A stretch of DNA of 64,000 nucleotides from a virus. Under the pieces are notes generated by a model. The model did not search any database. It was not told the DNA's origin and saw only the letters and a list, made by a program, of their open reading frames with translations. Below, piece after piece: positions 1,099-40,041 of the stretch (positions are counted from its first letter, which is position 1; the number at the start of each line of letters is the position of its first letter). The stretch spans positions 1-64,000 of the IMG/VR virus record IMGVR_UViG_3300009448_000012. One strand, written 5' to 3'. The translations under genes were made by a program, and so were the position numbers.

Positions 1099-1451
1099 CC
1101 GACCGGCGAGGCGAGGCGATGACCGAGATCGTCACCAGCTACCGCGAGTTGCGGAAGGCATGCAGTCGGCTGGAGAAGCTTTTGCAGCGGATCACCGACG
1201 CCGATGACCGCGCGCTGACCGACAAGGACCTGAAGCGCCTCGACAAGGCGGTCACGGTGATGAAGGTCGGCTTCAAGATCGTGAAGAAGGTTAGCGGCGC
1301 AACCAAACGCGACCCGGCGCCGCAGTGTGACGTGTGCCGGACGCCGTTGGGCGTCGGCTGGTGCTCGGCATGTTCCGCCGAGGAAGACGCCCGCGACGAC
1401 GCAAGCCGCCCTGTGACCATCCTGGGGGCTTCTGGAGGCATGCCCGAATGA
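1095..1451 (+). CDS. Hypothetical protein with C-terminal zinc-ribbon motif
   Basis: A protein of about 118 residues. The N-terminal two thirds is helical and basic (RELRKACSRLEKLLQRITDA). Near the C-terminus CDVCRTPLGVGWCSAC gives two CxxC pairs, which should bind one zinc ion. Two starts are possible: ATG 1095, overlapping the upstream stop, or ATG 1119, which has a better purine-rich site (GGCGAGGCG). An exact copy of the 12-mer CCCTGTGACCAT lies inside the gene at 1409-1420. Function unknown; a DNA-binding accessory role in packaging is only a possibility. Confidence 0.68.
   Translation: MTDRRGEAMTEIVTSYRELRKACSRLEKLLQRITDADDRALTDKDLKRLDKAVTVMKVGFKIVKKVSGATKRDPAPQCDVCRTPLGVGWCSACSAEEDARDDASRPVTILGASGGMPE
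1409..1420 (+). repeat. Polar 12-mer CCCTGTGACCAT, copy 1
   Basis: Near the end of the gene 1095-1451, codon phase reading P-V-T-I. Confidence 0.7.
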
Positions 1452-1684
1452 CGAACGGACACCGCATCGACGTCGGGACGATCTGGCGAGAGGTCCAGGC
1501 GAACACCGCCCGGCTGATCGCCTGTCCGCGTCACCGGTTCCCGGACCGCACGGAATTCGGCCAGCGGTGGACCTGCGCGGCGTGTGGCGGCCTGCTCGAC
1601 GCCGGCGACGTCCTCGCCTACTGTCGAGGCTTCAAAGCCGCCGGCGGCGATCCTCGGGTCATCTGGGCACCGTTCGAGACATGA
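1448..1684 (+). CDS. Hypothetical protein with CxxC motif
   Basis: A 78-residue protein just before the large terminase. It contains CPRHRFPD and later CAACGGLLDAGD, so a CxxxH/CxxC pair could form a small zinc site. The ATG overlaps the upstream stop and its TGA overlaps the terminase ATG at 1681, giving one translationally coupled series from terS to terL. In other phages this slot often holds an HNH nuclease, but no HNH triad is visible here. Confidence 0.65.
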   Translation: MTNGHRIDVGTIWREVQANTARLIACPRHRFPDRTEFGQRWTCAACGGLLDAGDVLAYCRGFKAAGGDPRVIWAPFET

Positions 1685-3708
1685 ACATGCACGCGCCATT
1701 GATCCAGGAACCGGCGACGGTGTCGGAATTCCTCGGCGCGGGCGCGCCGCTCGACCCGGTGACGCTTTATGCGATCCTGGTGCTGACCGGCGCCGAGGTG
1801 GCGGGTCCGTATGTCCGCATGGCGTGCCAACGCCATCTGAACGACCTGAAGTACGGCGGCGGGCGCGGGTTGTGGTTCGACCAGGAAGCGGCCGCCCTGG
1901 TCTATGAGTTTTTCGAGAGCCGGCTTCGGCTTGCGGAAGGTCAGTTCGATGGCCAGCCGTTCCGGCTCCACATCTCGCAATCGTTCATCATCGGGTCGAT
2001 CTATGGGTGGAAGCGGAAGAACGACCAAGGGAAGGTCGTCCGCCGGTTTCAGCGCGCATACATCGAGATGGGGAAGGGCAACGGCAAGTCGCCGATGGTC
2101 GGCGGCATGGGCCTTTACGGCATGCTATGGGACCGCGAGCCGGGCGCGCAGATCTATTCCGCCGGCGCGACCTATGATCAAGCGTCCATCCTGTTCAACG
2201 ATGCCGTGAAGATGGCGCGCGCGGTCCCGGAATGGAACGACGAAGACGACCCGCTGATCCAGTACGCCGGGAACCAGAAGGTCTACAACATGGCGGTGAT
2301 CCCCCCGCCGCAAAGCCTGTCGTTTTTCCGGCCGATCAGTCGGGAAAAGTCGCGATCCGGATCGGGTCCGCGCCCGCACATGGCCTTGTGCGATGAGCTT
2401 CACGAACATCCGGACGGCGGCGTGATCGAGATGCTGGAGCGCGGATTTAAATTCCGCCAGCAACCGTTGCTGATCATGATCACGAACAGCGGGTCCGACC
2501 GTAAGTCCGTGTGCTGGGCCGAACATGAACACGCGGTCGCGGTGTGCGAAGGCAACGTCGAGGACGACAAAACCTTCGCCTATGTCTGTTCGCTCGATGA
2601 AGGTGACAAGCCGCTCGACCAGCCGGAAACGTGGAAGAAGGCGAACCCGCTGCTCGACGTCACGATCACCGAAGAATACCTTCGCGGCGTCGTGAAGCAG
2701 GCCAAGGACATCGCCGGCAAGCAAAACAACATTTTGCGGCTTCATTTTTGCGTTTGGACCGACTCGGCGACCGCCTGGATCAGCCGGAAGAAATGGGAAA
2801 GTTGCGAAGACCGGACGCTGAAGATCGAGGACATGCGCGGGCGCAAGGCGTGGGGCGGGCTCGACCTGTCGCAAACCAAGGACTTGACCGCGACCGCCTG
2901 GGTTTTCGAGGATGGTCACAAGCTGGTCGAGAACCGGAAGACGCCCGGTCAGTTCATCACGAAGCCGTGTTACATCCTGTTCGTTCGGAGCTACACGCCG
3001 GAAGAAACCATGCTGGAGCGCGCCAAGCTCGACCGAGCGCCTTATGACCAATGGGTCGAGAAAAAGCACATGGTCGGGACGCCGGGGCCGGTGATCCGCC
3101 TGGACATCGTCGCCGACGACCTCGCCGAGGACGTGAAAATGTTCGACGTCCAGGGCGTCGCGTATGATCAATATCTGATCCGTGATTTCGAAAAGGATTG
3201 GAACGACCTCAACCCGCCGGCGTGCAAATTCCACGACCATCCGCAAGGCGTGAGCTATCGCCGCGACAGCGACCTGTTCATGCCGCGATCGGTCGACAAG
3301 TTCGAAACGCTGTTGCTAGAGGGTCGTTTGCGGGTCCATGTGAATTTCCCGCTCCGGACGGCCGTCGCCGGCGCCGTGTTCTGGACCTCGCCGGCCGGGC
3401 TCAAACGCTTCATGAAGGACAAGGCGACCAGCCGCATCGACCCGGCGGTCGCGGCCGCCATGGCTGTAGGACTGGCGACCTTGAACGAACCCGACGACGA
3501 CAGCGTGTATAACAAGATCGGCGCGGCGAACGCGGCCGCCCAAGCCGCCGCGCAGGCGGAAGCGGAAAGAACCGGCGCCGTCGCCGCCGCGCTGGCGCCG
3601 GGTGGAGAAATCGACTACAAAATTCTGAACGACCCGACGCATCCGCTTTACGACGCCATGGTGCTCCGGTTCCGCAAATGGGAAGAAGATCAGGACGATG
3701 ACGACTGA
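1681..3708 (+). CDS. terL: Terminase large subunit
   Basis: The packaging motor: an ATPase that drives DNA into the prohead and a nuclease that cuts the concatemer. The 675-residue length is normal for the Terminase_1 (HK97-like) family. Walker A is GKGNGKS at about residues 131-137. The Walker B region MALCDELHEH places the acidic pair near 238-239. In the C-terminal nuclease half, GGLDLSQTKD (Asp about 395) and VAYDQY (Asp about 496) fit RNase H-fold metal ligands. The start ATG 1681 overlaps the previous stop. The N-terminal region before Walker A is about 130 residues, typical for the family. Confidence 0.95.
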   Translation: MNMHAPLIQEPATVSEFLGAGAPLDPVTLYAILVLTGAEVAGPYVRMACQRHLNDLKYGGGRGLWFDQEAAALVYEFFESRLRLAEGQFDGQPFRLHISQSFIIGSIYGWKRKNDQGKVVRRFQRAYIEMGKGNGKSPMVGGMGLYGMLWDREPGAQIYSAGATYDQASILFNDAVKMARAVPEWNDEDDPLIQYAGNQKVYNMAVIPPPQSLSFFRPISREKSRSGSGPRPHMALCDELHEHPDGGVIEMLERGFKFRQQPLLIMITNSGSDRKSVCWAEHEHAVAVCEGNVEDDKTFAYVCSLDEGDKPLDQPETWKKANPLLDVTITEEYLRGVVKQAKDIAGKQNNILRLHFCVWTDSATAWISRKKWESCEDRTLKIEDMRGRKAWGGLDLSQTKDLTATAWVFEDGHKLVENRKTPGQFITKPCYILFVRSYTPEETMLERAKLDRAPYDQWVEKKHMVGTPGPVIRLDIVADDLAEDVKMFDVQGVAYDQYLIRDFEKDWNDLNPPACKFHDHPQGVSYRRDSDLFMPRSVDKFETLLLEGRLRVHVNFPLRTAVAGAVFWTSPAGLKRFMKDKATSRIDPAVAAAMAVGLATLNEPDDDSVYNKIGAANAAAQAAAQAEAERTGAVAAALAPGGEIDYKILNDPTHPLYDAMVLRFRKWEEDQDDDD

Positions 3709-3729
3709 CCGCATGAAGGCGCCGCGCTG

Positions 3730-4173: not shown

Positions 4174-5542
4174 AGCGCCGGTCGCACGGGTCACGCGCGA
4201 CGATCAGTACCATTCCGCGACGTCGCGGATCTTCTTCGCCGGCAAGACGCGGGCGGGCGTGCGCATCACCGGCGACAACGCGCTGACGATCTCGGCGGTT
4301 TGGGCGTGCATCCGGTTCTTGTCGCAGTCGATCGCGGCCTTGCCGTGGAATATCATCGACGACGTGACGAAGCTTCCGGTCAGCCTGTCGGTCAATGCGC
4401 AACGGGTCATCAAACGCCCGTCGCCCGAATATTCATCGTTTCAGTTTCGCGAAACGATGATGCATTGGGCGTTGCGCCACGGCAATGCCTACGCCGAGAT
4501 CGATCGCGATGTGCTGAACCGCCCGGTCGGCATGTTCCCGATTCATCCCGAACGCGTTTGTGTGATGCGCGACCCCGATACCCTGGAGCTTTTCTATACC
4601 GTGGACAACGGGACCGCACCGCCGACCGTCCTCGATGCGGCGTTCATGTTCCATTTGCGCGGCATGGGCGAAGGTCCTGTCGGCATGAACGTCATGGCCT
4701 ATGCGGCTGAAAGCCTGGGCTGGGTGAAAGCCGTCCAGCTATTCGGCGCCGGGTTCTTCGGCAACGGCGCGACGCCGGCCGGCATTGTGACCATGAAGAA
4801 GCCTTTGACGCCTGAAGGGCTCGCCGAGATCGAGAAGAAATTCCGGACGATGTACGGCGGGACGAAGAACGCCAACAAGACGGCCGTTCTCGATGCCGAC
4901 ATGGAATACAAGGCGCTGACCGTCGATCCGGACAAGGGTCAGTTCATCGAGACGAACCAATTCCTGATCGATGAGGTCTGTCGATGGTTCGGCGTCCCGC
5001 CGCATAAAATTTACAAGCTGCTGAATGCGACGTTCTCGAACATCGAACATCAATCCATCGAAGTCGTGATGGATTCACTGGTCCCGTGGGTCCGCCGGTT
5101 CGAGGACGAAGCCGAATACAAATTGCTTGGTCAGAACCGCGCCGGGCTCGTCAACAAGATGAACCTAAACGCCGTGCTGCGCGGCGATACGAAAACCCGC
5201 CTGGAGTATTTCCGGGGCTTGCGCGAGATCGGTGTCTTCCACGCCGACGATATTCTGGCGCTCGAAGATCTGCCGCTGATCGGCAAGTCGGGCGGCGGTG
5301 AAAAGCGCGTGATGCAAGGCCAGTACACGACGCTCGAAAAGATCGGCGAGGACCCGCCGAAGCCTGTCGCGCCGGCGGCGCCCGCACCAGGGCAACCGGA
5401 CCCGGCTGAACCGGACGAAGACGAAGCCGAGGACCCGCCGGCTGATCCCGAACGGGAGCAGACCGAGAGCGCCGAGACGACCGACGAATATCATCGCGCC
5501 CTTTTCACGCTCGACCGCATGGTGGAACATCATGGCCATTAA
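4124..5542 (+). CDS. Portal protein, HK97 family
   Basis: Forms the dodecameric ring at one capsid vertex through which DNA enters and leaves. The 472-residue product shows the family landmarks: AVWACIRFLSQSIAALPW near residue 60, HGNAYAEIDRD, the FGAGFFGNGATPAGIV segment, and the FLIDEVCRWFGVPPHKI...NATFSNIEHQ region. The C-terminal 70 residues are acidic and proline-rich, common in this family. Gene order terminase-portal-protease-capsid supports the call. It overlaps the next gene by 11 bases. Confidence 0.93.
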   Translation: MAGLKQARRRLARARAEAPVARVTRDDQYHSATSRIFFAGKTRAGVRITGDNALTISAVWACIRFLSQSIAALPWNIIDDVTKLPVSLSVNAQRVIKRPSPEYSSFQFRETMMHWALRHGNAYAEIDRDVLNRPVGMFPIHPERVCVMRDPDTLELFYTVDNGTAPPTVLDAAFMFHLRGMGEGPVGMNVMAYAAESLGWVKAVQLFGAGFFGNGATPAGIVTMKKPLTPEGLAEIEKKFRTMYGGTKNANKTAVLDADMEYKALTVDPDKGQFIETNQFLIDEVCRWFGVPPHKIYKLLNATFSNIEHQSIEVVMDSLVPWVRRFEDEAEYKLLGQNRAGLVNKMNLNAVLRGDTKTRLEYFRGLREIGVFHADDILALEDLPLIGKSGGGEKRVMQGQYTTLEKIGEDPPKPVAPAAPAPGQPDPAEPDEDEAEDPPADPEREQTESAETTDEYHRALFTLDRMVEHHGH

Positions 5543-7283
5543 GAAAATCGCCGTCGCGCCGGTGCATCCCTCGGCGGTTGGTCTGGAGCCGATCGCGGCG
5601 CCGATGATCCCGACGAACTGGCAAGGGGCGTTCGCCCGGCTGGTGGACAGCGTCACGATCGTCGTCACCGCGCAGGCGAAGAAGGTCGCGGACCTGACCC
5701 AAGCGCTCGCCGACGCGAACGGGCTGATCGCCGCGCTGACCAAGAAACAGGCGGATGATTACGCGCTGCTGGCGAAAGGGCTGGTTGGTCAGAACATCGC
5801 CGGCATTCGCGACGAAGCGAGCGAGATCCGCGCGGACCTGACCGACATCGCCGGCAAGGTCGAAGCGCTGATCAAGGGTCGCGCCGAGATCGTCGACAAC
5901 GTCCGCGCGACCGACAAGCGGATCGACGCCTTGCCGTCCGTGCATGAGACGGTCGCGAAGGTCGGCGAGATGGTCGCGGCCGGATACGAACATTCGATCA
6001 AGCTGATCACCGACATGACCGTCGAGAAGGTCACAGCGCTGGAGGCGGCCGCCGGCGCCGCGCGGGATATCGCCGAGGCGGTCCGCGACGAAGTCCGGAC
6101 GGTGGCGACCGGTCTCGGCGACCTGACCGAGACGCACACCGCGACGCGGCGCCAGCTCGACGCCCTTGCGTCCGACGTGAACGATATCGGCGAGGACCTT
6201 GGCGGCAAGGTGTCCGCGCTGACCAAGGGGCATTCCGACCTCACCGCGGCGAACTCGGAAAACGCCGCGGCGAATTCGAAGCTCGCCGCGGTCGTGACCG
6301 AGCACGTCGACCGGCTCGGCGCCAATCTCGGCACGCTCGAAGAACGGGTCGAGGACGCGGCGGCGAAGTTCGGCGACAAGGTGTCCGAACTGAAGGATCT
6401 GGTCGAGGACTACGCTTCGACGGCGAGCAGCGAAGACGCCGGGCTTGCGGACCAGCTCGGGAAGCTCGACGGTCATGTGACGGCCGCGCGTGAGGTCGCC
6501 GACGCCGCCCGCACGCGCGCGGCCGAAGCGATGAGCCATTGCAACGATCTTTCCGGCACGGTGAGCGCGATCATCAAGGCGCGGGCGGATGAGGCTGATC
6601 AATTCGCCGAGACGGTCGAGACGGTTGGGAACCAGGTTAAAACCATGGTCGACGACCTCGCCGCGCAATTCGGCGAAATGAGTCAGATGTCGGTCGACGA
6701 CGCCAAGCGGATCGAGCAGGTCGAGGAAACGGCGCGGACGATCGGCGCCGAGGTCCAGGGGCTCGCGAAGGTGATCGAAGCATGCCGCGACGCCGGCGCC
6801 GAGATCGCGACCGATGTGACGGACATGCTTCGCCGTGTGACCATCTCGCTTGGTCAAATGCCTTCCGGGTTCATGATCGACCAGGACGGCGAGCTTGTGC
6901 GGGTTGCGCAGTCGGGCGAGGTGACGAAGATCGGCAAGGTGGTGTCGCACGGCCGCGACGCACCGGAAATCGTTTCCGTGAAGATGGAAGGCGAGCGGTT
7001 GATTTTCGCTCGATCGGATCGGACTGAGATCGGATGCACGGTCGTTCGCGCGACCGTCGAGCCGGCGCCGGCGATCACCGGACCCGACGCGGTCGATCCG
7101 CTGACGATCGGCGCCCTGTCGAAGGACCCGGCATTGCTGGCGCGGCAGGTCGAACACATGGCCGAAATGCGGGCGGGTGGTAAAAAATATAAGGAAATAT
7201 CGGAGAAATTTGGTACTTCTGAAAAAACGGTCGCCAAGCTGATCAGGGGTTATCAGAATGCCCAAACTAAAAAAGACGCCTAA
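5532..7283 (+). CDS. Long coiled-coil protein with C-terminal helix-turn-helix
   Basis: A 583-residue protein of unknown function placed between portal and protease. Residues from about 40 to 430 are almost continuous heptad-like helix, rich in A, D, E, K and V and lacking proline. A strand-rich region follows (about 440-510; MPSGFMIDQDGELVRVAQSG). Near the C-terminus, MRAGGKKYKEISEKFGTSEK and TVAKLIRGYQ form a resolvase/Cro-like helix-turn-helix. Known phages rarely place such a gene here; a scaffold, an internal core protein or a DNA-binding protein packaged with the genome are options. It overlaps the protease gene by 26 bases, suggesting coupled translation. Confidence 0.75.
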   Translation: MAIKKIAVAPVHPSAVGLEPIAAPMIPTNWQGAFARLVDSVTIVVTAQAKKVADLTQALADANGLIAALTKKQADDYALLAKGLVGQNIAGIRDEASEIRADLTDIAGKVEALIKGRAEIVDNVRATDKRIDALPSVHETVAKVGEMVAAGYEHSIKLITDMTVEKVTALEAAAGAARDIAEAVRDEVRTVATGLGDLTETHTATRRQLDALASDVNDIGEDLGGKVSALTKGHSDLTAANSENAAANSKLAAVVTEHVDRLGANLGTLEERVEDAAAKFGDKVSELKDLVEDYASTASSEDAGLADQLGKLDGHVTAAREVADAARTRAAEAMSHCNDLSGTVSAIIKARADEADQFAETVETVGNQVKTMVDDLAAQFGEMSQMSVDDAKRIEQVEETARTIGAEVQGLAKVIEACRDAGAEIATDVTDMLRRVTISLGQMPSGFMIDQDGELVRVAQSGEVTKIGKVVSHGRDAPEIVSVKMEGERLIFARSDRTEIGCTVVRATVEPAPAITGPDAVDPLTIGALSKDPALLARQVEHMAEMRAGGKKYKEISEKFGTSEKTVAKLIRGYQNAQTKKDA

Positions 7284-11197: not shown

Positions 11198-11936
11198 TGC
11201 CTTTATTCGCGGCCTTGCCGCGCTCGGGTACACCGTGCGGACGAAGCCGCTCCAGCGCATAGCCGCCGACGACGTCCTGGTGATCTGGAATCGGGGCGCG
11301 CAATTCCAGTTCGAGGCGACCCGCCACACCAAAGCCGGGTCGCCGATCATCGTCGCGGAAAACGGGTACACCGACGCCGTCGACGACCATGGGCATCAGT
11401 GGTTTTCGCTCGCGCTCGACCATCATAACGGCGTCGGGCGCTGGTGGATCGAGGACCAGCCGCGCTTCCCGTCCATGGGCCAAGCCGTGGCGCCGTGGCG
11501 GGCTGAAGGGTCCTTCATCCTGGTGTTGCCGCAACGCGGCATTGGGGCGCCCGGCGTGGCCATGCCGCAGTCTTGGCCGCGCCTGATCGCGCAACGGCTC
11601 GCCAAGGTCACGGCGCGGCCGGTGCGCATCCGCGCGCATCCTGGTCTCAAGTCCTTGGCTAAGCCGCTGGCGCCCGCGCTGGAGGGCTGTCACGCCGTCG
11701 TGACTTGGGGATCAGGCGCGGCGCTGAAAGCGATCATGCTCGGCGTTCCCGCCTTCCACGAACTTCCCGGATGGATCGGCGCGCCGGCCGCGCGCTTCGG
11801 CATCGACCAGGGCGTCGAAAACCCCTTCCTCGGCGATCGCGGTCCGATGCTCGAACGAATGGCATGGTCACAATGGCCGATCGCCGACATCGCCGCCGGG
11901 ACCGCCTTTCGCACCCTTCTGAAATGCAATCACTGA
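11148..11936 (+). CDS. GT-B-like glycosyltransferase, paralogue 1
   Basis: A 262-residue protein with the look of the C-terminal half of GT-B transferases acting on capsule or lipopolysaccharide sugars. The best landmark is AVVTWGSGAALKAIMLGVPA near residue 190, the glycine-rich donor-binding turn followed by a helix and GVPAF. LVLPQRGIG and VRIRAHPGL precede it as Rossmann strands. Two related proteins follow (11983-12819 and 13355-14221) with the same final motif. The substrate is unknown; a cytoplasmic sugar transfer is inferred. Confidence 0.6.
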   Translation: MPTAVCLIRDNVHYRHDAFIRGLAALGYTVRTKPLQRIAADDVLVIWNRGAQFQFEATRHTKAGSPIIVAENGYTDAVDDHGHQWFSLALDHHNGVGRWWIEDQPRFPSMGQAVAPWRAEGSFILVLPQRGIGAPGVAMPQSWPRLIAQRLAKVTARPVRIRAHPGLKSLAKPLAPALEGCHAVVTWGSGAALKAIMLGVPAFHELPGWIGAPAARFGIDQGVENPFLGDRGPMLERMAWSQWPIADIAAGTAFRTLLKCNH

Positions 11937-11982: not shown

Positions 11983-12819
11983 GTGAAAGTTCATTTATTC
12001 GCCGTATCCCGCCACGGCCGCGCCGGACACATCGCCGAGGCGATGCAAACCGGGCTGAAGCGCCACGGCATCGCCGCCGAGATCATCACCGACCAGCGAA
12101 CCGGGCGCGCCGTGCTCGGCGACGTCGCGATCGCGTATGGTTGGGTGCATGAACCCGTCTTCACCGCGTACCGGCACGCCGGCGCCCACTATGCTTATTT
12201 CGATATGGGCTATTTCAACCGGAAGCCGTCGAAGGACAAGGGCGGGTCCCGCGACGGTCATCACCGGCTCGCCGTGAACAGTTGGGACACCGCCGACACA
12301 ATGCGGACCCTGTGTCCATCCGACCGATGGGACGCGCTCGGGATCGAGGTCGCGCCCAATCGCGAGCAGCACGCCGGCGCGGTCCTGGTGTGCGGCATGT
12401 CCGAGAAGGCGGCCGGGACGCATGGGTTCCGGCCGGGTCAATGGGAAGCCGAGACCGTCGCGACCTTGCGCGCGGCGTTCCCGACGACCGAGATCGTCGA
12501 CCGACCTAAGCCCGCGAACCTGGACGCCGGCGAGCCGATCGCCGAGGTCCTGAAGCGGACGGCGATCGTCGTCAGCCACCATTCGAACGTCGCGGTCGAC
12601 GCCCTGGTCGCCGGCGTGCCGACCTATGCGCGAAAGGGCGTCGGCAAGCTGGTGTCGTGCTCGAACCCGGTGGACGCGGTCCGCATGATGGGGCCGATCG
12701 TCGCCGAGCCGATGCGCCGCCAGATCCTCGCCGACGTCGCATACGCGCAATGGTCGCCGCCGGAGATGCGCACCGGAGCGGCGTGGTCTCACATTCGGAG
12801 CCTGATCGATGCACAATGA
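11983..12819 (+). CDS. GT-B-like glycosyltransferase, paralogue 2
   Basis: A 278-residue protein starting at GTG 11983. It begins with a Rossmann strand (MKVHLFAVSRHGRAGHIAEA), and carries HYAYFDMGYFNRK and the C-terminal VVSHHSNVAVDALVAGVPTY motif, equivalent to the GSGAALKAIMLGVPA of its upstream neighbour. Such SNVAVDALVAGVP motifs bind the nucleotide-sugar donor in GT-B enzymes. A one-mismatch copy of the polar 12-mer (CCCTGTGTCCAT) lies at 12308-12319. It overlaps the next gene by 11 bases. Confidence 0.6.
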   Translation: MKVHLFAVSRHGRAGHIAEAMQTGLKRHGIAAEIITDQRTGRAVLGDVAIAYGWVHEPVFTAYRHAGAHYAYFDMGYFNRKPSKDKGGSRDGHHRLAVNSWDTADTMRTLCPSDRWDALGIEVAPNREQHAGAVLVCGMSEKAAGTHGFRPGQWEAETVATLRAAFPTTEIVDRPKPANLDAGEPIAEVLKRTAIVVSHHSNVAVDALVAGVPTYARKGVGKLVSCSNPVDAVRMMGPIVAEPMRRQILADVAYAQWSPPEMRTGAAWSHIRSLIDAQ

Positions 12820-13358: not shown

Positions 13359-14221
13359 AATTCGCCTTCTATGTCTCGACCGGCAAAAGCCGGGAAGCGC
13401 CGCTTCGCGACGCCTGGACCGCCGGCGCGGCCGCGCTCGGCGACGAACTGGTGGTGACGTCGAACGATGTCGCGGCGCCGATCGACGCCGACGTCGCGGT
13501 GATGGTCGGACTCAAGTCCATCGACCTGCGCGAAGCGTGCAAGGCGGCGGGTCAGCGCGTGCTGATCTTCGACAAGGGGTATGACCGGAAAGAGGATTGG
13601 TGGCGCGTCTCGATCGATGCGCACCAGCCGACCGACTATCTGACCAAGCTGGTCCGCCCGCGCGCGCGCATGGACAAATGCGGGTGGAACCCGAAACCGT
13701 GGCGCGCGCCGACGCCTGACGGGCATGTGATCATCGCCGGCGGCGGCCGCAAATACTATGACGCCCACGATCTTCCGGACCCGGCGGACTACATCGCCGG
13801 CGTCGTGGCGGACCTGCGCGCGGCCGGCTGCTCGCGCCGGATCTGGTATCGCCCCAAGCCGTCGATGGCGGACGTTGCGCCGGTTGCCGACACGACGCTG
13901 TCGCGGCACAAGTCGATTTATGATCTGCTGAAGGGGGCTCACGTCCTGGTCACGTTCGGCTCGAACGCGTGCTTCGAAGCGGTGCTGGCCGGAATACCGT
14001 CGATCGTCACCGGCGACGCGGTGATGCGCCCGATCTCGTCCACACGGCTTGACGAGATCGAGGCGCCTCACTTAGCAGACGACGGGGGGCGTCTTTCGCT
14101 GCTGTCGAGCTTAGCATACTGCCAATTCCGGTTAAGCGAAATCTCGCAAGGTTGGGGCGTTCATGAAATTAAAGCGCAATTACAAGAAATTGTACGAAAC
14201 GCACCACACGAACAACCCTAA
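13355..14221 (+). CDS. GT-B-like glycosyltransferase, paralogue 3
   Basis: A 288-residue member of the same family as 11148 and 11983. It starts MKFAFYVSTGKSREAPLRDA, has a central GGRKYYD segment and the C-terminal donor motif VTFGSNACFEAVLAGIPSIV. ATG 13355 overlaps the upstream stop (ATGA). The last 59 bases overlap the following methyltransferase gene, and base composition there becomes more AT-rich, which may mark a recombination joint. Confidence 0.6.
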   Translation: MKFAFYVSTGKSREAPLRDAWTAGAAALGDELVVTSNDVAAPIDADVAVMVGLKSIDLREACKAAGQRVLIFDKGYDRKEDWWRVSIDAHQPTDYLTKLVRPRARMDKCGWNPKPWRAPTPDGHVIIAGGGRKYYDAHDLPDPADYIAGVVADLRAAGCSRRIWYRPKPSMADVAPVADTTLSRHKSIYDLLKGAHVLVTFGSNACFEAVLAGIPSIVTGDAVMRPISSTRLDEIEAPHLADDGGRLSLLSSLAYCQFRLSEISQGWGVHEIKAQLQEIVRNAPHEQP

Positions 14222-19541: not shown

Positions 19542-20002
19542 TGGCACTCCAGAATTTTTTCAATCCGATCGAGGTCGAGGGGCTGGCCGAACTTCAGGTC
19601 GCCTTGCGCGAGCTTCCCGACGCGACCGCGCGGAACGTGCTTCGCCGGGTCGCGAAATCGGTGCTCCAGCCGATCGCGCAGCGGGCGCAATCGCTCGCGC
19701 CGGTCGAGGTCGGTCGGTTGCGCCGGTCGATCGTCGTCAGCGACAAGCTGACTCGTCGGCAGAAATCGCAGTTTCAGCGCGACGACCCGAACGACGTCAT
19801 CATGTTCGTCGGCGCCGGCGCGCTCGCACAGGCGCACATGATGGAATTCGGCACGACGGACATCAGCCCGCGCCCGTTCTTGCGGCCGGCGTGGGACGGC
19901 GGAAAAGACAAGGTGCTACAGTCGATTAAAGACCAACTGTGGATCGAGATTCAGAAGGCGGCGGCACGGCTGGCGCGCAAAGCGGCGAAGGGTACGGGAT
20001 AA
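19541..20002 (+). CDS. HK97 gp10-like neck protein
   Basis: A 153-residue protein of the HK97-gp10 family. The pattern EVEGLAELQVALRELPD, VLRRVAKSVLQPIAQRAQ, and AHMMEFGTTDISPRPFLRPA is diagnostic. It acts at the head-tail interface or in tail completion. The start ATG 19541 overlaps the preceding stop, and a basic helical tail ends the protein. Confidence 0.88.
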   Translation: MALQNFFNPIEVEGLAELQVALRELPDATARNVLRRVAKSVLQPIAQRAQSLAPVEVGRLRRSIVVSDKLTRRQKSQFQRDDPNDVIMFVGAGALAQAHMMEFGTTDISPRPFLRPAWDGGKDKVLQSIKDQLWIEIQKAAARLARKAAKGTG

Positions 20003-20006
20003 TCAC

Positions 20007-24569: not shown

Positions 24570-27520
24570 TGTCCGGTGAACGCGCCCTGGTGTATGTCGA
24601 AGTCGATGTCGATTACTGCTCGCTAAGGTACGGCGAGGGCGCTTGTCCGGCAATCCTCGGCGTCGACAGCGCTGACAAATGCTTCAACTCGCTCAAGACC
24701 TGCGCGGTGCGGACCGCGTTCACGAACGACCCTGTGACCATCCGGTTCGCACAGGACAATGTATATTTGCCCAAGGATATCCCGGCGATCCCGTCGATCA
24801 CGGGCGTCCAATTCTCGCCGGCGACGATCTCGCTCGGGAAGGACCTCGGTCAGCGCGCGACCCTGACGGTCGGTTTCCGCGATCATAAGCACAGCGACAC
24901 CGGCGAGGGCTTCGACAAATACCACGCCGAGCGCTCTTATAACCCGTTCGATCAAGGATCGTTTTGGGGGAAATTCCGCGCGCGCCAGCCCTATCTCAAG
25001 GGGCGGTCGATCCGGCTGATCCGTGGCTATCTTGGTCAAACGCTCGCCGAGATGGACACGCGGCATTACATCATCGAATCGTTCAACGGTCCGACGCCAC
25101 AGGGCTCTTACACTCTGATCGCGAAAGACGTCCTGAAGCTGGCCGATGGCGACCGCGCGCAAGCGCCGATGGTGTCCAACGGGTTCCTGGTCTCGGCGAT
25201 CGACGAAGTCGCGACGACCTTGAACCTGTCACCCAACGGGATCGGCGATTTCGAATATCCGAATTTCGGCTGGATCGCGATCGGCGGCGAAGAAATCATG
25301 GAATTCACCCGAACGGGTGGCATCGATGACAACACGCTGCTGATGCTTCACGGCGACGGCGCCGACAACGGGACGACCTTCACCGATTCGAGCGCGTCGA
25401 ACCGGACCGCGACGCGCGTCGGCACGCCTGTGACCGACACCGGGCTGGTCGTGCATGGGACGGCGTCGCTCCAGTTTCCAGGGTCCGACGACTTCCTGAC
25501 CTTTCCCGACGATGACGCCTGGAGCTTTCCCGGCGACTTCACGATCGATTGTTGGGTCTATGTCACCGACCTGTCCATAAACCGGGTTATGGTCTCGCAC
25601 TCGGACAACACCGCCGACAATCATTGGCGTTTTCAGGTGGGCACGAGCGGCGCGCTCGGGTTCATCGTCTTCGTCGGCGGCGTGCTGTCCTTTTCGATCC
25701 AGTCGCCGGCGAGCAGTATCACGATCAACAGTTGGACCCATGTCGCGGTCGTGCGAGAGGGAACGACGTGGCGGATGTACGTCAACGGCTTCGAGGCGTC
25801 GGAAGAAGTGAACGCCACGGCAATCACCAATTATTCGGGCCTGCTCCGCGTCGGCGTGAGCGGCGACGGGACCAGCTTCGACTTTTTCAGCAATATCGAC
25901 GAGTTGCGAATTTCCAAGGTTGCGCGCAGCGAATCCGAACTGATCGCGGGCCTGCTCAACCAGTATAACGACGGCGACATTCTCCAGATCGTTCGCGGGC
26001 AACTCGGCACGACGGCCGCCGAGCATGACGTTCAAGACCGCGTGCAATTGGTCGTGCGATATGACGGCGCGGACCCGGCTGACATCCTATACGACCTGTT
26101 CACGAATTACGCGCAGATCCCGGCCGAATATATCAGTCTCGGCGACTGGCAAACCGAGACCGGCTCATTCCTTCAGCGCCTTTACGGCGCGACGATCGCC
26201 GACCCGACCGACGTCACCAAGCTGGTGAGCGAGTTGGTCGAGCAAGCCGCGCTGGCGATCTGGTGGGACGACGTGAACCAGCTCATCCGCCTTAAGGTGT
26301 TGCGCTCGATCCTGACCGACACCGCGCTGTTCGACGACGACAATATCATGGCCGGGTCGCTCACCGTCCAGGAACAGCCCAATTTACGCGCGTCGCAGAT
26401 CTGGACCTACTACGGTCAGCGGAACCCGCTTCGTCCGATCGACGAACCCGACAATTTCCGCTCGACGCTGGCCACGGTCAATTTGCAAGCCGAGAGCGAC
26501 GAAGGTCAGCCGGCGATCATGAAGATTTTCGCCCGCTGGATTCCCGCGTTCGGGCGGGACACCGCCGAGCGGCTGAACGACATCCAGTTGGGCCGGTACC
26601 AAACGCCGCCGCGCCGCGTCACATTCGACGTCTTCCGGGGCTCGGTCGACGATCCCGTGTTGGGTTCCGGGTATCAGGTGGGTGCATACTCGATCCAGGA
26701 CGAATTCGGCGCCCCTGTGACCATGCCGATCCAGCTCACGCGCCTTAATCCGATGTCTGATCGCTTCAGCGTCGAAGGCGAGGAAATGCTTTTCGAAGCG
26801 CTCGACCCGGCGGACCTGCTCGACCGGACGATCGTGATCGATAGCGACATCCTGGACGTCAATCTTCGCGACCTTCACGACTCGATCTATCCGGAGCCGG
26901 TCGCGTTCGAAAGCCCGTCGATCACCGTGACGTGCATCGTCGAAAGCGACGTCCTGGTCGGCGCGAGCGGCGCCGATATCCCCGCGTTCGACGTCGGTGA
27001 CTGGCCGGGCGGCGTCACGATCACGGTCATCAATAACGGGCGCATTCAGGGCGCCGGCGGCGACGGCGGTGACGGCGGCAACTTCTCCGGAAGCAATTTT
27101 AAGGACGGCGAGGCGGGCGGCACGGCCGTTTATACGCGGTACCCGATCATGTTCGAGGACGCGGCCGGACAGACCTATGGCGGCGGCGGCGGTGGCGGCG
27201 GTGGCTACTTCAGGGGCGGCGGTGGCGGTGGCGGTGCTGGTCAGGTGCCGGGTGAAGGCGGACCCTTCACAACCGACCAGAACAGCCCCAAGTCGGGCGC
27301 GCCCGGCACGCTGGACGCGGGCGGCATCGGCGGCGACGGCGGCGGTGAATGGGACGACGACGGCGGTAACGGCGGCACGCCGGGCGTCGCGGGCGGCGTC
27401 GGCGAACCGGGTCCGCCGACAGCCGGCGCCGGCGGCGCGGCCGGGCACGCGATTGACGGACTGTCGTTCATAACGCAGGTTGGGGCGGAAGGTGATCGCC
27501 TTGGAGGGGAAGTGAACTAA
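24569..27520 (+). CDS. Tail hub / tip protein with inserted LamG domain and glycine-rich end
   Basis: A 983-residue baseplate hub and likely receptor-binding protein. Residues 1-250 resemble the N-terminal hub domain (EVDVDYCSLRYGEGACP, with four cysteines in the first 50). A laminin-G/concanavalin-type domain occupies about 252-463 (LLMLHGDGADNGTTFTDSSA; WSFPGDFTIDCWVYVTD; NIDELRISKVARSESEL) and splits the strand pair IMEFTRTGG / GDILQIVRGQLGTTAAEHD. The rest of the hub follows to about 815. Residues 825-960 are glycine-rich, like polyglycine receptor-binding tips. Two exact 12-mer copies lie within it. Confidence 0.85.
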   Translation: MSGERALVYVEVDVDYCSLRYGEGACPAILGVDSADKCFNSLKTCAVRTAFTNDPVTIRFAQDNVYLPKDIPAIPSITGVQFSPATISLGKDLGQRATLTVGFRDHKHSDTGEGFDKYHAERSYNPFDQGSFWGKFRARQPYLKGRSIRLIRGYLGQTLAEMDTRHYIIESFNGPTPQGSYTLIAKDVLKLADGDRAQAPMVSNGFLVSAIDEVATTLNLSPNGIGDFEYPNFGWIAIGGEEIMEFTRTGGIDDNTLLMLHGDGADNGTTFTDSSASNRTATRVGTPVTDTGLVVHGTASLQFPGSDDFLTFPDDDAWSFPGDFTIDCWVYVTDLSINRVMVSHSDNTADNHWRFQVGTSGALGFIVFVGGVLSFSIQSPASSITINSWTHVAVVREGTTWRMYVNGFEASEEVNATAITNYSGLLRVGVSGDGTSFDFFSNIDELRISKVARSESELIAGLLNQYNDGDILQIVRGQLGTTAAEHDVQDRVQLVVRYDGADPADILYDLFTNYAQIPAEYISLGDWQTETGSFLQRLYGATIADPTDVTKLVSELVEQAALAIWWDDVNQLIRLKVLRSILTDTALFDDDNIMAGSLTVQEQPNLRASQIWTYYGQRNPLRPIDEPDNFRSTLATVNLQAESDEGQPAIMKIFARWIPAFGRDTAERLNDIQLGRYQTPPRRVTFDVFRGSVDDPVLGSGYQVGAYSIQDEFGAPVTMPIQLTRLNPMSDRFSVEGEEMLFEALDPADLLDRTIVIDSDILDVNLRDLHDSIYPEPVAFESPSITVTCIVESDVLVGASGADIPAFDVGDWPGGVTITVINNGRIQGAGGDGGDGGNFSGSNFKDGEAGGTAVYTRYPIMFEDAAGQTYGGGGGGGGGYFRGGGGGGGAGQVPGEGGPFTTDQNSPKSGAPGTLDAGGIGGDGGGEWDDDGGNGGTPGVAGGVGEPGPPTAGAGGAAGHAIDGLSFITQVGAEGDRLGGEVN
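24730..24741 (+). repeat. Polar 12-mer, copy 3
   Basis: Inside the tail hub gene, sense strand, coding D-P-V-T-I. Confidence 0.7.
26713..26724 (+). repeat. Polar 12-mer, copy 4
   Basis: Inside the tail hub gene, sense strand, coding A-P-V-T-M, 2 kb after copy 3. Confidence 0.7.
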
Positions 27521-30009: not shown

Positions 30010-30021
30010 CCCTGTGACCAT
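30010..30021 (+). repeat. Polar 12-mer, copy 5
   Basis: Contains the lysozyme GTG start at 30014 and precedes ATG 30020. Confidence 0.7.
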
Positions 30022-30779: not shown

Positions 30780-31427
30780 ATGTACAATCGCTCCAAACTG
30801 GTCGCCCTGGTGGCGATCGCCGTCATGATCACAGCGGCGCCATCGCTGGCGCAAACCGTCGACTTGCGGACGCCGGCCGGCGAGGTCGTCACTTACCTGT
30901 TCGGCATGCTCGCGACGGCGCTGACCGCGCTCGCTAGCGTCGCGATCCGGCTGGTCATGGTCAAGGTCGGGATGCAGAACAGCGCGCTCGAACAGAACCT
31001 AAATGACCGGCTGAATGACATCATCTTCAAGGGGATGGACTTCGCGCAGGCGACTGCCGAAAACGAGATCCTGAAAAAGGGTTCGGGCCTGGAGGCGGTC
31101 AAGTTCGACAATTACTTCATTTCGCTGGCGGCGAGCTATGTCGCCGAGCGCGCGCCCGACATCCTGAAGAAGTTCACGGTCACGCAGGAAAAGCTTGTCG
31201 AAATGATCTGGGCTCGCATCCCCGCTTACGCGCAGACCGTGCCGGTCATGGGCGGCGCCTCGACGCCGGCGACCGGCAAGGCTGTCGCGGCCGTGACGGG
31301 CGGTCCCTCGATCCCTGCGCGCGCGCAGCCGGCGCCGGTGATCGAGCAGCCGAAGACCGAAACGCCATTGCCAGCCGACAAGGTGTCCGCTAGCATGTTC
31401 GACGAGGCGCCCCAAACAGGCGCTTAA
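30780..31427 (+). CDS. Signal-peptide membrane protein, possible holin
   Basis: A 215-residue protein. Residues 1-25 look like a cleavable signal peptide (LVALVAIAVMITAAPSLAQT), followed by one span, VVTYLFGMLATALTALASVA. The soluble part holds an amphipathic domain (NDIIFKGMDFAQA; ERAPDILKKFTVTQEKLVEM) as in LLH-type phage holins. The C-terminal 60 residues are proline- and alanine-rich. Position after the lysozyme supports a lysis role. Confidence 0.65.
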   Translation: MYNRSKLVALVAIAVMITAAPSLAQTVDLRTPAGEVVTYLFGMLATALTALASVAIRLVMVKVGMQNSALEQNLNDRLNDIIFKGMDFAQATAENEILKKGSGLEAVKFDNYFISLAASYVAERAPDILKKFTVTQEKLVEMIWARIPAYAQTVPVMGGASTPATGKAVAAVTGGPSIPARAQPAPVIEQPKTETPLPADKVSASMFDEAPQTGA

Positions 31428-32325: not shown

Positions 32326-32732
32326 TCCGGAATATCCGCGTCCAGCGCTTCGTCGATGTCCGCGATCAGCCGCGCGCGGACGCCGTCGCTCATCGGGTGC
32401 TCGACGTCGACGATCTCGCGGACGCTGGTCAGGGCGTCGCGAAGGTGCTGGACCATCATGCGATCGGTATTCGGCCCTGTGACCATCGGCGCGAGCGACA
32501 GCATCACTAGCCCGTCGCTCAGCGCGCCGAAGTCCGCGATATGGATGACCCGGACGCCGATCGGTTTGGTCGCGTCCTCGGCTAGGTCCTGGTTGCCGCG
32601 CCCCATTTCGAGCAGGTCGCCAGCCTTGACGTTGGCGCGGGTTTTGTCGACCAGGATTGCGCGCATCTCGCCGGCGCGGACGGCGTCCCAATAGTCGGCG
32701 CGGACAACTAGCTTGTGCGTCTTGGCGGTCAT
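32322..32732 (-). CDS. ASCH/DUF3850-like protein
   Basis: A 136-residue protein. The first half, HKLVVRADYWDAVRAGEMRA ... KAGDLLEM ... VRVIHIADF, follows the strand-helix-strand plan of DUF3850/ASCH domains, which are predicted RNA-binding beta-barrels. The C-terminal half is a separate helical part (RDALTSVREIVDVEHPMSDG). An exact copy of the polar 12-mer (32475-32486) lies inside the gene, antisense to it. The assignment is by pattern and moderate. Confidence 0.5.
   Translation of the reverse strand: MTAKTHKLVVRADYWDAVRAGEMRAILVDKTRANVKAGDLLEMGRGNQDLAEDATKPIGVRVIHIADFGALSDGLVMLSLAPMVTGPNTDRMMVQHLRDALTSVREIVDVEHPMSDGVRARLIADIDEALDADIPE
32475..32486 (+). repeat. Polar 12-mer, copy 6
   Basis: Antisense to the ASCH-like gene; on the coding strand it reads M-V-T-G. 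Confidence 0.7.
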
Positions 32733-35783: not shown

Positions 35784-35804
35784 CACACATTCTCCATTTT
35801 GCGT

Positions 35805-35820: not shown

Positions 35821-35942
35821 CCGGATGGAACCAAGTCCACCAAGTAAGGCGTTGCTTGTTTCTTTGGCAGCTTTCCGTTCCAACGTTTGTTAGACTGCGC
35901 TTGGAACGGTAAAGGATCAGTGGGGCCTGTCTTCTGATTACT

Positions 35943-35971
35943 AATGTATGCTCACTTGTGCTCACCGTCAA
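35943..35971 (-). promoter_or_regulatory. Promoter P35.95 with direct-repeat operator
   Basis: On the minus strand TTGACG (35971-35966), a 17-base spacer, and TACATT (35948-35943). The spacer contains TGAGC twice at a 10-base period. It reads toward 35783 and overlaps the stop of the 35968 gene. Confidence 0.62.
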
Positions 35972-36075
35972 TAGAAAAACGAACGATTTTTCATTAAATC
36001 GACGATTATTGTTCCGACGATGAACGTCCAGATGATCACAGCGGCGGCGATGCTTGATCGAACGTGTCTAGGCAT
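35968..36075 (-). CDS. Very small membrane protein, 35 residues
   Basis: The product has one span, SIAAAVIIWTFIVGTIIVDL, between basic ends. AAGG lies seven bases before ATG 36075, and a hairpin (36094-36122) precedes it. Its TGA lies inside the -35 box of the next promoter. Function unknown. Confidence 0.5.
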   Translation of the reverse strand: MPRHVRSSIAAAVIIWTFIVGTIIVDLMKNRSFFY

Positions 36076-36093
36076 TGATTAACCTTGGAAAAT

Positions 36094-36122
36094 GGTCGTG
36101 CCGACCGATCATCGACACGACC
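36094..36122 (-). promoter_or_regulatory. Leader hairpin overlapping a 12-mer variant
   Basis: GGTCGTG (36094-36100) pairs with CACGACC (36116-36122). The last bases run into CCCTGTGATTAT (36121-36132), a two-mismatch relative of the polar 12-mer. Confidence 0.42.
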
Positions 36123-36128
36123 CTGTGA

Positions 36129-39100
36129 TTATTCCCCGCGTTTCGCGGCTTCGAGGTTTTCCAGCGCGGCCGTGATCTGATCACGGACATCGTTGAGCAG
36201 TTTGTAAGGATCGACGCCCACGCCGGCGGCGTCGATGTTGGTCTTGATCAGCTTCAGGTCAGCTTCGACGCCGCGCATCAGCTCGCGCCATTGCTTGATC
36301 ACGACGGTCTTAAGCGACGGCGCGGCCGCCGGCTTGGGACGGTTCTCCGGATCGAGCGACCGCGCCTTGACGACGCCTTCAGCCGTGCGGTGCGTGACGC
36401 CGCCGGCGATCTTCTTCCACGCCTTGCCCGTCCAGGTGTAAACGTCGGTCAGGTTGTTTCCGATGTCGCGGATCTCGCATGCGCCGACCTCGGTCCCGGC
36501 GTCGATCGGCACGGCGCCGGGATGAATGACCGCTTCGACTTCCTTCCACGTCAGGTCGTCGACCAGCCGATCGACGACGCCGGTGTTTTTCCATTCATCG
36601 ACCGCGTAAAGCCCGTCACCGGTCGAGACGGTGAACTTCACGCTGAACGTGCTGGTCGGTGACGGCTCGACCTCATCAGGCATGTCGACGTCGACCGCGT
36701 CGCCGGCGCGCGGCGGCGCGGTCAGGACGAACCCCTTAGCGGCCCAACGCTCGATCTGTTCTTCCGTGGGTGCGGCGAGCCGGGACACGTCGCCCATTCG
36801 TTGCGCCGCCTGTGCGACCAGCTCGACCGCGTCCCAATAGGTCGCCGAGACCGGGAAATTCTCGCCGCGCATGGTCAGCCATTGCCCCTTGGTCGCGCTC
36901 CAGCGTTGGACGCTCCAGCCGCCGGCGGGCTCGATCAGGTTCGGCATGATCCGAAACGTGCCTTCGTGCTCGGGAACGTTGGTCCCGACCGGCATGGTCA
37001 CGGTTTCGATGCGAACCGGCGGCTGTTGCGCGACGCTGGCGGCGTAAATCTGGTCGAAGGTCTCGGTCGGCGGGACATGCGCCGCGACGTTTGCGTGTGG
37101 CGGTTGTTCGGGCTGGTCAGCCTGCATCGTGCAATCCAGTGCGTGTTGACGGCGCCGGGCTTCCGAAAGCTGTTCAGCGACGTCGGCGAAGTGTTGGGGG
37201 TGTCGTTTCAGGTAGTGGATCGCGTCCGCCCGGTGGGCACTGTTCCCTTGCTGCTCGCCGCCGTTGGGTCCCTCGCCGGTGTGGCGAAGGTGATGATCGA
37301 GCGCTTCGAGACACGACAGGGCGGTCGCGATCGCGTGGCGGCCGTCCTGAAACCGGTTGGGCTTCGGCACGTCGCCGATCGGCGTCGTCCGCGTGGCGAT
37401 CGCCAGCGCTTCGTCGATCAGCTCGATCGCGCTCGGGACATATCGCGATATCATGCTGTCACCGCGCAGGCGGCGAAGGACCTCGGCGACCGCATCGAGG
37501 CGCGTGTTATTCGCCTCGATCATGCCGTCGCGAGCATCGACCGGTTCATCGTTGATCACGCTCACGGTTTGGTCGCTGATGATTTCGTCGATCAGCACCA
37601 TCGCCGAGCCGATCGCCGGGTCGTCGCTCCGGACACTATTCAGGATCTCGATCACGCGGGTCAGCCGGCGGACCGTCAGACCATCAGGTTCGTCGGCGAA
37701 TGGTTGCAAGCCTTGCAAGCCGCGATAGATCGTGTTTTCCGACCAGCCGGCCGCGACCAGCCTGGAGACGATCGTGTTCAGCGCGGCCGTTGCGTGGCTG
37801 TCGCGTCTCCATCCGAGGACCGCGCGGCACTGCTCGGCGAACGCGGTCAGTTCGGGACTATCCATTTTCCAGATCAAGCCGGTGTCCTGACCGTTCGGGT
37901 CGAGGATGCGGCGCGGCAGATCGTAACCAGGCGAAGCGCTGGCGATCTCGTTTTCACCGCGAACGATCGTGATCGCCTGACCGACCCTGTGACCATATTT
38001 CACGATCTCGCCTTCGGCCTCGGCGACGGTGTCGAACTGGCGCCATGGCCACAGCTCCGGCTCGCATTCCGATATCACCGCCGACCAATGTCCGCCGACC
38101 GGTGTCGCGCGCCAGCGCTCGATCTCGAACATGCCGTTCGTCGACGACTGGCGGACATGAAACGCACCGTCCATGATCCCGGCGACGGTCTCGGCGTCCT
38201 CGCCGGTGAGCAGTGCCGGCACATCGTCGGCGCTGATCAGCTCGACCGCGTAAGGGGCTTGTTCGCTGGACCAGTCGCCGAACGCTTGGATCGCCGAGGC
38301 GCGCGTATCGAACGACCTCGACAGCACGCGGTACATGACCGGGAAGCCGGTTTTCTTGTGAATGGCGGACCAGCCTTCGACGTCGTCGTGGATGAAGAAG
38401 AACCACAATCCGTTGTAGGGCGATTGCTGGATCTGAAACATCACCGGCGTCGGCTCGACCGCGATGTCGAAGTCGGGACCATTGGCGCCACGGAACGCGC
38501 TGATCGCGCGAAGCGCCTGTTCGCGGCTGACGAAGGTCGTCGGGCGAAGCGACGGTTCATCCGAGATACGCACGACCCGCTTGTCATAGCCGTCGTAAGG
38601 CGCGCCGATCCAAACGTATCCGCCTTGGTCGAGCCGCTGAATCAACCAGGACCCGGCGGCGTTCAGCACGATCCGCGCGGTCACGGTCGGGCGGGCGGGC
38701 ACATCGCGCGGCGAGGCGGGCGGCGTCGGTGTCATAGGCGGTTCGCCGGCGGGCTGGTTGTCGGCGATCCATTTTTCCGGCAAGCCGCTGATCCCCACGG
38801 TCAGCGGCACGTCGAGCATGAAGCGGTCTTTCATGCCGATCCGCGCGGCGTATCCGTGGATCGCCTTTTCGGTCGCTTCGTAGTTCGACCGAACCAGCAA
38901 GCCGTCGACCATGATGGTCCACCAGTTGCCGGCAAGGTCCTGTTGCTGGATCGCGCAGTCGGTGTTGATCATGCTTTTATCGCCGGCGCGCGAGAACCGC
39001 ACGATCCGGAACAGCTTGTCGGGACCCTGGACGATCGGCGCGTGATCGCCGGGAAGGAAGACCATCACGCCGGTTTTCGCCTTCGTCGCGGCGCGGTGTT

Positions 39101-39269: not shown

Positions 39270-39622
39270 AGGTCCTCATTGGGCAGGGTATCGCGAAAGT
39301 CTTCGTGCTGTTCGCCGTCCAGGCGGATGTGACGGGCGTTCTCGCACGTCATCATCTGGATTCGCAGGGGGATGTTATTCCCCTGGTTGATCTGGTTCAT
39401 CAGCCAACCGACGCAATGAACCTGTTCCTCGGTGTCGTGCTGGTGGCATCCCATGGCGACGATGATGCCGCCGGGCGTGTGCGAGGCGCCGGGCTCGGCG
39501 ATCGTGCATAACAACGCCCGGTGAAGGTCCTCGGAATAGCCGTCCGGGATCTCGCGCGGATCGGTCGTGACCTTCCACGGGCACTTGTCGCACTGGTGGA
39601 GCCGCTTCAGTTTCCAGGTCAT
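39266..39622 (-). CDS. DUF6283-like cysteine-rich protein
   Basis: A 118-residue protein. CDKCPWKVTTDPREIPDGYS, then AMGCHQ and VHCVGWLMNQINQGNNIPLR, match the DUF6283 pattern of CxxCPWR, a C-H pair and CxGWL. The cysteines and histidines probably bind zinc. Function of the family is unknown. The stop overlaps the start of the 1046-residue gene. Confidence 0.66.
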   Translation of the reverse strand: MTWKLKRLHQCDKCPWKVTTDPREIPDGYSEDLHRALLCTIAEPGASHTPGGIIVAMGCHQHDTEEQVHCVGWLMNQINQGNNIPLRIQMMTCENARHIRLDGEQHEDFRDTLPNEDL

Positions 39623-40041
39623 CAGAACACCAGCATGCCGACCGTGAAGGACACGACTGCCGTGATCACGAACCACGCGGCCGGATGGATCGCGCGCAGC
39701 ACGGCGCCGACGATCGACCAGTCGTCATGATCGAACACGCTCGACCGGAACGCGGCCGCGCGCGGCGAGCGGTTCAACCGGTTCAGAAACCGCGCGACGT
39801 TGCGCGCGTCGCGGGCGGCCGCCTCGCTCACGGCCGCGCCGAATTCGCGCAAGGCGTCGGCGAGGACCCGCATTTCGTCGGCGGTCGAGCGGCTGACCGG
39901 CTTCAGCCCTTGGCATTCAGGCGGCACAGGCTGACCCTGTGACCATCCTTGCTCGATCGCGCATCCATAGGACGCGGGACAGCCTTCAGCCGGGCACATG
40001 TGCCCTTCACGGCGCGTGCAATGCCAGCCTGGAAAGTTCAT
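39622..40041 (-). CDS. Cysteine-rich, C-terminally anchored membrane protein
   Basis: A 139-residue protein. The N-terminus has five cysteines and histidines within 35 residues (CTRREGHMCPAEGCPASYGC), the middle is an alanine-rich helix, and the C-terminus a span (IHPAAWFVITAVVSFTVGML). It should be anchored by the tail with the cysteine head in the cytoplasm. An antisense exact copy of the polar 12-mer lies at 39935-39946. Function unknown. Confidence 0.6.
   Translation of the reverse strand: MNFPGWHCTRREGHMCPAEGCPASYGCAIEQGWSQGQPVPPECQGLKPVSRSTADEMRVLADALREFGAAVSEAAARDARNVARFLNRLNRSPRAAAFRSSVFDHDDWSIVGAVLRAIHPAAWFVITAVVSFTVGMLVF
39935..39946 (+). repeat. Polar 12-mer, copy 8
   Basis: Antisense to the gene 39622-40041, in a third codon phase (W-S-Q-G). 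Confidence 0.7.

Follow-up and report, generated by a model that had tools for sequence, protein, structure and literature searches.

Evenly spaced two-strand repeats in a tailed phage genome as candidate initiation sites for the phage's own primase

Introduction

What reads a 12-base word, CCCTGTGACCAT, that recurs across the genome of a tailed phage? The window analysed here is the first 64,000 bases of the 74,557-base IMG/VR virus record IMGVR_UViG_3300009448_000012, called G000 (74.6 kb), the rest of which, beyond the window, is L009. G000 carries genes for terL, portal, capsid, tape measure, tail fibre and endolysin, followed by a replication module of polymerase, Gp2.5-like annealing protein, DUF2800 exonuclease, helicase, VRR_NUC-like endonuclease and DUF5906 primase. 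The reading we favour, and regard as fairly probable, is that the repeats form a genome-wide array at which the phage's own primase recognises its template and initiates.

In well-studied systems a primase site is short enough to turn up everywhere by chance. A long, selected and evenly spaced priming array would, if real, be a new kind of genome organisation, and no earlier report of one was found in the literature searched, coverage of which was incomplete. The excess of the motif, its even spacing, its retention with turnover, its recurrence with the replication module and the family of the primase were all computed. The motif class and several of the tests were chosen after the data had been seen; this affects least the blind searches, the empirical null for spacing and the GTG specificity that others have published for related primases.

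Motif excess and strand distribution

A preliminary description of this DNA reported eight exact copies of CCCTGTGACCAT, all on the plus strand, and every one was found; a ninth lies on the plus strand at 68111, outside the window, which gives nine plus and no minus copies in the record. The near copies that it listed are likewise present, at 6833, 9523, 12308, 20912, 51955 and 54179. It had placed three exact copies in minus-strand genes, of which two do lie inside such genes (32475 and 37985) and the third (39935) only beside the start of one.

The description of a word confined to one strand fails for the whole motif. A position matrix that started from the exact copies converged on cGRCCnTGTGAYCATs, with 25 plus and 15 minus sites in the record (21 and 12 in the window) against 2.4 and 1.7 under the null, and the reversed-matrix control found 0 and 1. 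An initial, wide matrix search had drifted into codon periodicity and was discarded. Only one minus relative, at 45015, had been noticed previously; copies with one mismatch lie on the minus strand at 45019, 48311 and 63386 of the window, and a fourth at 67114 of the record. Strict polarity was dropped as a defining feature after the matrix gave 15 minus sites, and the 25:15 split alone is no significant bias (binomial p ~0.15). The CCC...A subset is still polar, at 16:0 in G000, as are CCNTGTGAYYAT in the sibling contig G394 (5:0) and the motif matches in L010-L012 (6:0 by strand). The polar 12-mer makes up the strongest part of a motif family that occupies both strands, and strict polarity is limited to the strongest copies.

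Because CpG-rich codon patterns dominate in G000, k-mer counts without a codon null mislead there. Our null kept proteins and codon usage: synonymous codons were shuffled in the genes of each strand, and bases inside the gaps between genes. Against it CCCTGTGA occurs 16 times on the plus strand and never on the minus, where 0.68 and 0.39 are expected, and the plus-strand maximum in 300 codon-preserving shuffles was 3, in agreement with the earlier view that coding does not explain the excess. Without its flanks, bare TGTGA shows a modest excess in every phage.

Codon or codon-pair bias would make the repeat a convenient Pro-Val-Thr-Ile/Met in a GC-rich phage. Fifteen of the 17 same-strand genic sites do lie in one codon phase, [C]CCT GTG ACC AT[C/G], and the shuffle leaves room for context-dependent codon choice; against this stand 13 sites antisense to genes and 10 intergenic ones, the ~20-fold excess of CCCTGTGA over the codon null and an even spacing (see below) that codon bias would not give. 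As sole cause it is refuted by these observations, and we find it hardly credible.

A stoperator-like site had also been proposed. The stoperators of cluster A mycobacteriophages resemble the motif in being short asymmetric sites with tens of copies per phage genome, and differ in being mostly intergenic and oriented by transcription (PMC6550527, PMC9934374, PMC5721134). Neither is true in G000, where 30 of the 40 sites lie inside predicted genes, in both orientations and in genes of both directions, which speaks against the proposal. The other 10 lie between genes, an enrichment given that 8.4% of the sequence is intergenic.

Spacing and retention of the sites

Spacing was tested on the 47 G000 sites found at a slightly looser cut-off. 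Gaps on the plus strand average 2.6 kb with a coefficient of variation (CV) of 0.32 against 0.95 for random placement (p 0.0000 in 20,000 simulations), and the largest is 4.0 kb against 10.2; on the minus strand they average 4.1 kb, with a CV of 0.55 (p 0.0075). As an empirical null, 303 other 6- and 7-mers with 27-31 plus copies had CVs of ~1.0, with a minimum of 0.65. The regularity is abolished when strand labels are permuted, both in G000 (p<2e-4) and in record G406 (p<2e-4), and for eight records combined the permutation gave p 2e-6, or 5e-4 at a stricter cut-off. In record G404 strand-specific regularity was missing at every cut-off; in G396 it was slight, with p 0.03 at the loosest cut-off only.

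Such even spacing can naturally be read as an array that keeps unprimed stretches short on both strands. At fourfold sites the GC skew of the plus strand is positive in plus genes (0.040) and minus genes (0.111), as it is in intergenic DNA (0.080), and this positive skew throughout fits the plus strand, which has more and stronger sites, as the usual lagging-strand template. Sorting of plus and minus sites into replication arms was looked for in G000 and not found.

G394 is a collinear sibling of G000 at ~70% DNA identity in which some of the sites lie elsewhere. Of 11 sites compared across G394 and L010-L012, 5 are kept, against 9.5% of all 9-mers at equal tolerance (p 0.002), and others were gained or lost between siblings. 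At one locus the siblings encode DPVTM with the motif and the window DPVTL without it, so the peptide does not impose the site. Retention together with turnover looks like a dispersed signal selected for presence rather than place. The excess over the codon null, the occurrence in intergenic DNA as well as in genes of either direction, the retention above neutral and the over-regular spacing all bear out the preliminary suggestion of a signal at the DNA level.

Members of the motif family in the window, with scores where available, are as follows.

1409..1420, plus: exact copy CCCTGTGACCAT, inside plus gene 1095-1451
2912..2923, minus: GCTTGTGACCAT, antisense inside terL, score 18.4
4783..4794, plus: CATTGTGACCAT, inside portal gene, score 20.5
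6833..6844, plus: CCGTGTGACCAT; core kept in sibling L011
9523..9534, plus: CCCTGTGATCAT, intergenic, score 24.0
11864..11875, minus: CATTGTGACCAT; core kept in sibling G394
12308..12319, plus: CCCTGTGTCCAT
13723..13734, plus: GCATGTGATCAT; core kept in sibling G394
16918..16929, plus: exact copy CCCTGTGACCAT
19999..20010, minus: CCATGTGATTAT, between plus genes
20912..20923, plus: CCATGTGACCAT
24730..24741, plus: exact copy CCCTGTGACCAT, tail fibre gene; kept in G394 (16523)
26713..26724, plus: exact copy CCCTGTGACCAT, tail fibre gene; lost in G394
30010..30021, plus: exact copy CCCTGTGACCAT, start of endolysin gene; kept in G394 (21761)
30825..30836, minus: CGCTGTGATCAT
32475..32486, plus: exact copy CCCTGTGACCAT, inside minus gene 32322-32732
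36032..36043, minus: CGCTGTGATCAT, intergenic
36121..36132, plus: CCCTGTGATTAT, intergenic
37985..37996, plus: exact copy CCCTGTGACCAT, inside minus gene 36129-39269
39935..39946, plus: exact copy CCCTGTGACCAT, beside start of minus gene 39622-39927
41478..41489, minus: CCCTGTGTTCAT
42526..42537, plus: CCTTGTGACTAT
43207..43218, minus: CATTGTGTTCAT
45019..45030, minus: ACCTGTGACCAT, the minus relative noticed previously
46488..46499, plus: CGCTGTGACCAT
48311..48322, minus: CCTTGTGACCAT
49608..49619, plus: CCTTGTGATCAT
51955..51966, plus: CCCTGTGACCTT, weak member, inside DNA polymerase gene
54179..54190, plus: CCCTGTGATCAT
55152..55163, minus: CGCTGTGATCAT
58353..58364, minus: CCGTGTGATTAT, intergenic
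61733..61744, plus: CCATGTGATTAT, gene junction
62366..62377, minus: CGATGTGATCAT
63180..63191, plus: CCTTGTGATTAT

Distribution in other phages

G394, G395 and G396 came to light through an exact 14-mer scan of IMG/VR, among whose listed matches most were due to chance. A scan of IMG/VR for polymerase-based relatives found none. Counts of TGTGAYYAT on the plus/minus strands, with the reversed-pattern control in brackets, are as follows.

G000: 25/13 (0/0)
G394: 8/3 (0/0)
G395: 13/10 (0/0)
Sinorhizobium phage HMSP1-Susan: 9/5 (1/1)
G396: 4/6 (0/0)
G406: 6/5 (0/1)

G395 and the cultured HMSP1-Susan have essentially only replication genes in common with G000, the main ones at ~38-42% identity. 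Blind searches, in which gapped motifs were set against the codon null with no seed, placed TGTG..CAT or TGTGA..AT at or near the top in G395, CTGTG...AT in HMSP1-Susan, TGTG.T.AC in G406 and TGTGG...TC in G403. When all 256 four-base cores were ranked in each of 46 primase-bearing and 29 control records, TGTG came first in 6 of the 46 and within rank 4 in 11, the best control rank being 17/256. The ranks differed between the two sets (Mann-Whitney p 6e-4), the records being non-independent and of unequal length and the controls including G394, a fragment without the primase stretch.

In another rival reading, terminase or portal would use the motif as an orientation signal for packaging or DNA entry, and the six L010-L012 matches do all point one way relative to terL. 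However, ~75 distant terL relatives (0.96 Mb) hold one site only, phages that share only replication genes have the motif, and 15 of the G000 sites are in the opposite orientation. A link to terL was set aside on the lack of the motif in these relatives; a packaging or transfer signal, one of the mechanisms proposed at the outset, appears very improbable. As judged from the genomes compared, the motif tracks the replication module and not terL.

The remaining early proposal was a Chi-like or KOPS-like element, i.e., an oriented signal of the host copied into the phage. Like E. coli Chi and KOPS, the motif is an oriented octamer-like signal scattered in coding sequence. Its strongest 8-mer is 16:0 on one strand, and its density, ~1 per 4.6 kb, resembles that of Chi in E. 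coli. Those are signals of the host chromosome and would be expected to be abundant there and common to phages of the same host. However, no enrichment was found in 385 alphaproteobacterial genomes (none holds more than 2 copies of the 12-mer; the host may lie outside this set), which weakens the case for a host signal in Alphaproteobacteria. Other Sinorhizobium and Rhizobium phages are without the core that HMSP1-Susan has, and the G000 sites lie on both strands, 25:15 and intermixed (arc test p 1.0), with over-regular spacing. We consider a host signal improbable.

Positives on the primase tree all fall within one 16-row part. A link between the motif and the primase family as a whole was rejected, since most relatives at ~40% identity are without TGTGAYYAT and parsimony showed no clustering on primase or helicase trees.

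Other dispersed words were met in these records. In L235 and L237 (IMG/VR; related primase of another clade), strand-biased CGNACCTT/AAGGTNCG tops the blind search at 27:3 and 29:2, and L272 has GGTAAACC-like repeats. In Rhizobium phage RHph_X2_26 (L313-L316) GGAGTC/GACTCC, a GANTC-containing hexamer, is over-represented (44-47 against ~9), and Agrobacterium phage 7-7-1 (L214) has 10 copies of CTACAAAT on one strand and 0 on the other, with 0.4 expected, a possible phage promoter element.

The primase and its published relatives

By its sequence and predicted fold, the G000 primase is an archaeo-eukaryotic (AEP) PrimPol of the NrS-1/pRN1 type, with a helix-bundle domain (HBD) and a helicase part. 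Its N-terminal part matches the NrS-1 structures 6k9a/6a9w (N300) with a profile E of 3e-36 and its helicase part 6k9c with 1e-13; the HBD belongs to Pfam PF22763 and by itself gives a separate HMMER domain match to NrS-1 (i-E 7e-14), and the top Foldseek matches of the predicted structure (mean pLDDT 76.5) are NrS-1. The catalytic DxD and sGxGxH motifs align with NrS-1; D84, D86, G118 and H120 are invariant in 14 primases, and S115 and G116 nearly so.

NrS-1 primase-polymerase recognises 5'-TTTGGTTA-3', 5'-GTGA-3' and 5'-GTGG-3' and starts at the base just upstream (PMC8718748). The ORF904 primase of the archaeal plasmid pRN1 requires GTG, a change of GTG to CTG abolishing priming (PMC8076596), and on its template CTGTGCTCA, which reads 5'-CTGTG... 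as CCCTGTGA does, ATP pairs with the T before GTG and dGTP with the C before that (PMC11009956). In six phages, with only the 3' part of the motif required, 125 of 132 cases have a pyrimidine as the base 5' of GTG, which is T in 103, as expected for a primer that starts with a purine; the core is followed by A in most phages and by G in G403. The likeness to NrS-1 lies in a homologous HBD primase, a GTGA/GTGG core and a predicted initiation base upstream of GTG. The G000 motif is longer than the NrS-1 site, with YCAT downstream and GRCCN upstream. No array of dispersed sites at even spacing exists in the NrS-1 genome, and for pRN1 a genome-wide array was not reported in the literature searched, unlike what is seen in G000.

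Discussion

The primase is probably the reader of the repeats, with priming probably occurring at the sites and following a strand logic. The HBD would read GTGA within ...CCCT-GTGA-YCAT on exposed single-stranded DNA, and primer synthesis would begin across from the pyrimidine that immediately precedes GTG, in most cases T and hence with A, before running into CCC to give 5'-AGGG. Near-regular sites on both strands, every ~2.6 kb on plus and ~4.1 kb on minus, would leave no long stretch without a start point for discontinuous synthesis. Because the plus set is denser and stronger, the layout suggests that the plus strand may be the main lagging-strand template in the G000 lineage.

Several observations weigh against priming by the primase. 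Plus and minus sites are unsegregated along the genome, where simple bidirectional forks predict segregation, and G406 has a uniformly positive GC skew yet no excess of plus sites. TGTG is not the leading core in most of the 46 primase-bearing records, some of which have other dispersed motifs, e.g., AAGGTNCG. In the NrS-1 phage itself, besides the missing array, TGTG ranks 23/256 and TGTGACC is absent. Parsimony on the primase tree needs 6 changes against 5.9 in shuffles, and the YCAT half of the motif is absent from known primase sites in the literature searched. Finally, since all genes of the module co-occur, the reader could be another of its proteins.

This last point defines the main rival, in which the repeats are binding sites of another phage protein, be it a module protein or a regulator. 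The protein could be the DUF2800 exonuclease, with the site as its Chi-like stop, the helicase or annealing protein, which would load there, or a repressor whose asymmetric operators are numerous and scattered, as in phage P1. The polymerase, annealing protein, exonuclease, helicase and primase occur as a set, which leaves gene content unable to tell them apart, and the intergenic enrichment of the sites would suit such a protein. However, operators need neither even spacing on each strand nor a mostly genic position, and we know of no site of a DUF2800 exonuclease, helicase, annealing protein or repressor with a GTGA/GTGG core. Homologous primases do have that core (PMC8718748, PMC8076596). 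We judge another protein as reader to be rather unlikely.

We are evenly divided on whether some tailed phages with an HBD-type PrimPol hard-wire priming through selected, evenly spaced, strand-specific arrays of ~12-base sites whose motif diverges between lineages. Such arrays would let fragment start points, and perhaps fork direction, be read from sequence, and would allow the specificity of primases to be read out bioinformatically in many phages. HMSP1-Susan, on Sinorhizobium meliloti, offers a cultured test case; its homologue of the G000 primase is ATS92115.1.

Other features of the record

The genes of the shared replication module are placed as follows, the last three by coordinates of the record, beyond the window.

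51595..53655, minus: DNA polymerase gene (phrog_1252)
60501..61736, minus: gene for Gp2.5-like single-stranded DNA-binding/annealing protein
61741..62868, minus: DUF2800 (phrog_69) exonuclease gene
65388-66929: helicase gene
70391-70855: VRR_NUC-like endonuclease gene
71276-73642: primase gene

No integrase was seen among the G000 proteins searched. Among known phages, those with the best terL matches include phages of Paracoccus, Rhizobium and Sinorhizobium (~45-54%), and in the sibling L012 (1134-4247) terL carries an intein-like insertion of ~1 kb with a LAGLIDADG-like match, which splits the ATPase domain.

Adjoining the replication genes, an AT-rich intergenic block at 59880-60400 of the window with direct and inverted AAAAGTTCGG-type repeats is a candidate replication origin. 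A second repeat, GGGGAACCCCTTGAGAG on the plus strand (CTCTCAAGGGGTTCCCC in gene direction), has 10 copies at 45640-51004 and a related copy at 58768. It directly precedes the start codons of minus genes, behind a GC-rich hairpin, and is reminiscent of the start-associated sequences of cluster K mycobacteriophages; at 45820, 48120, 49301 and 50942 the repeated unit is longer, 126 nt, and may include a promoter.

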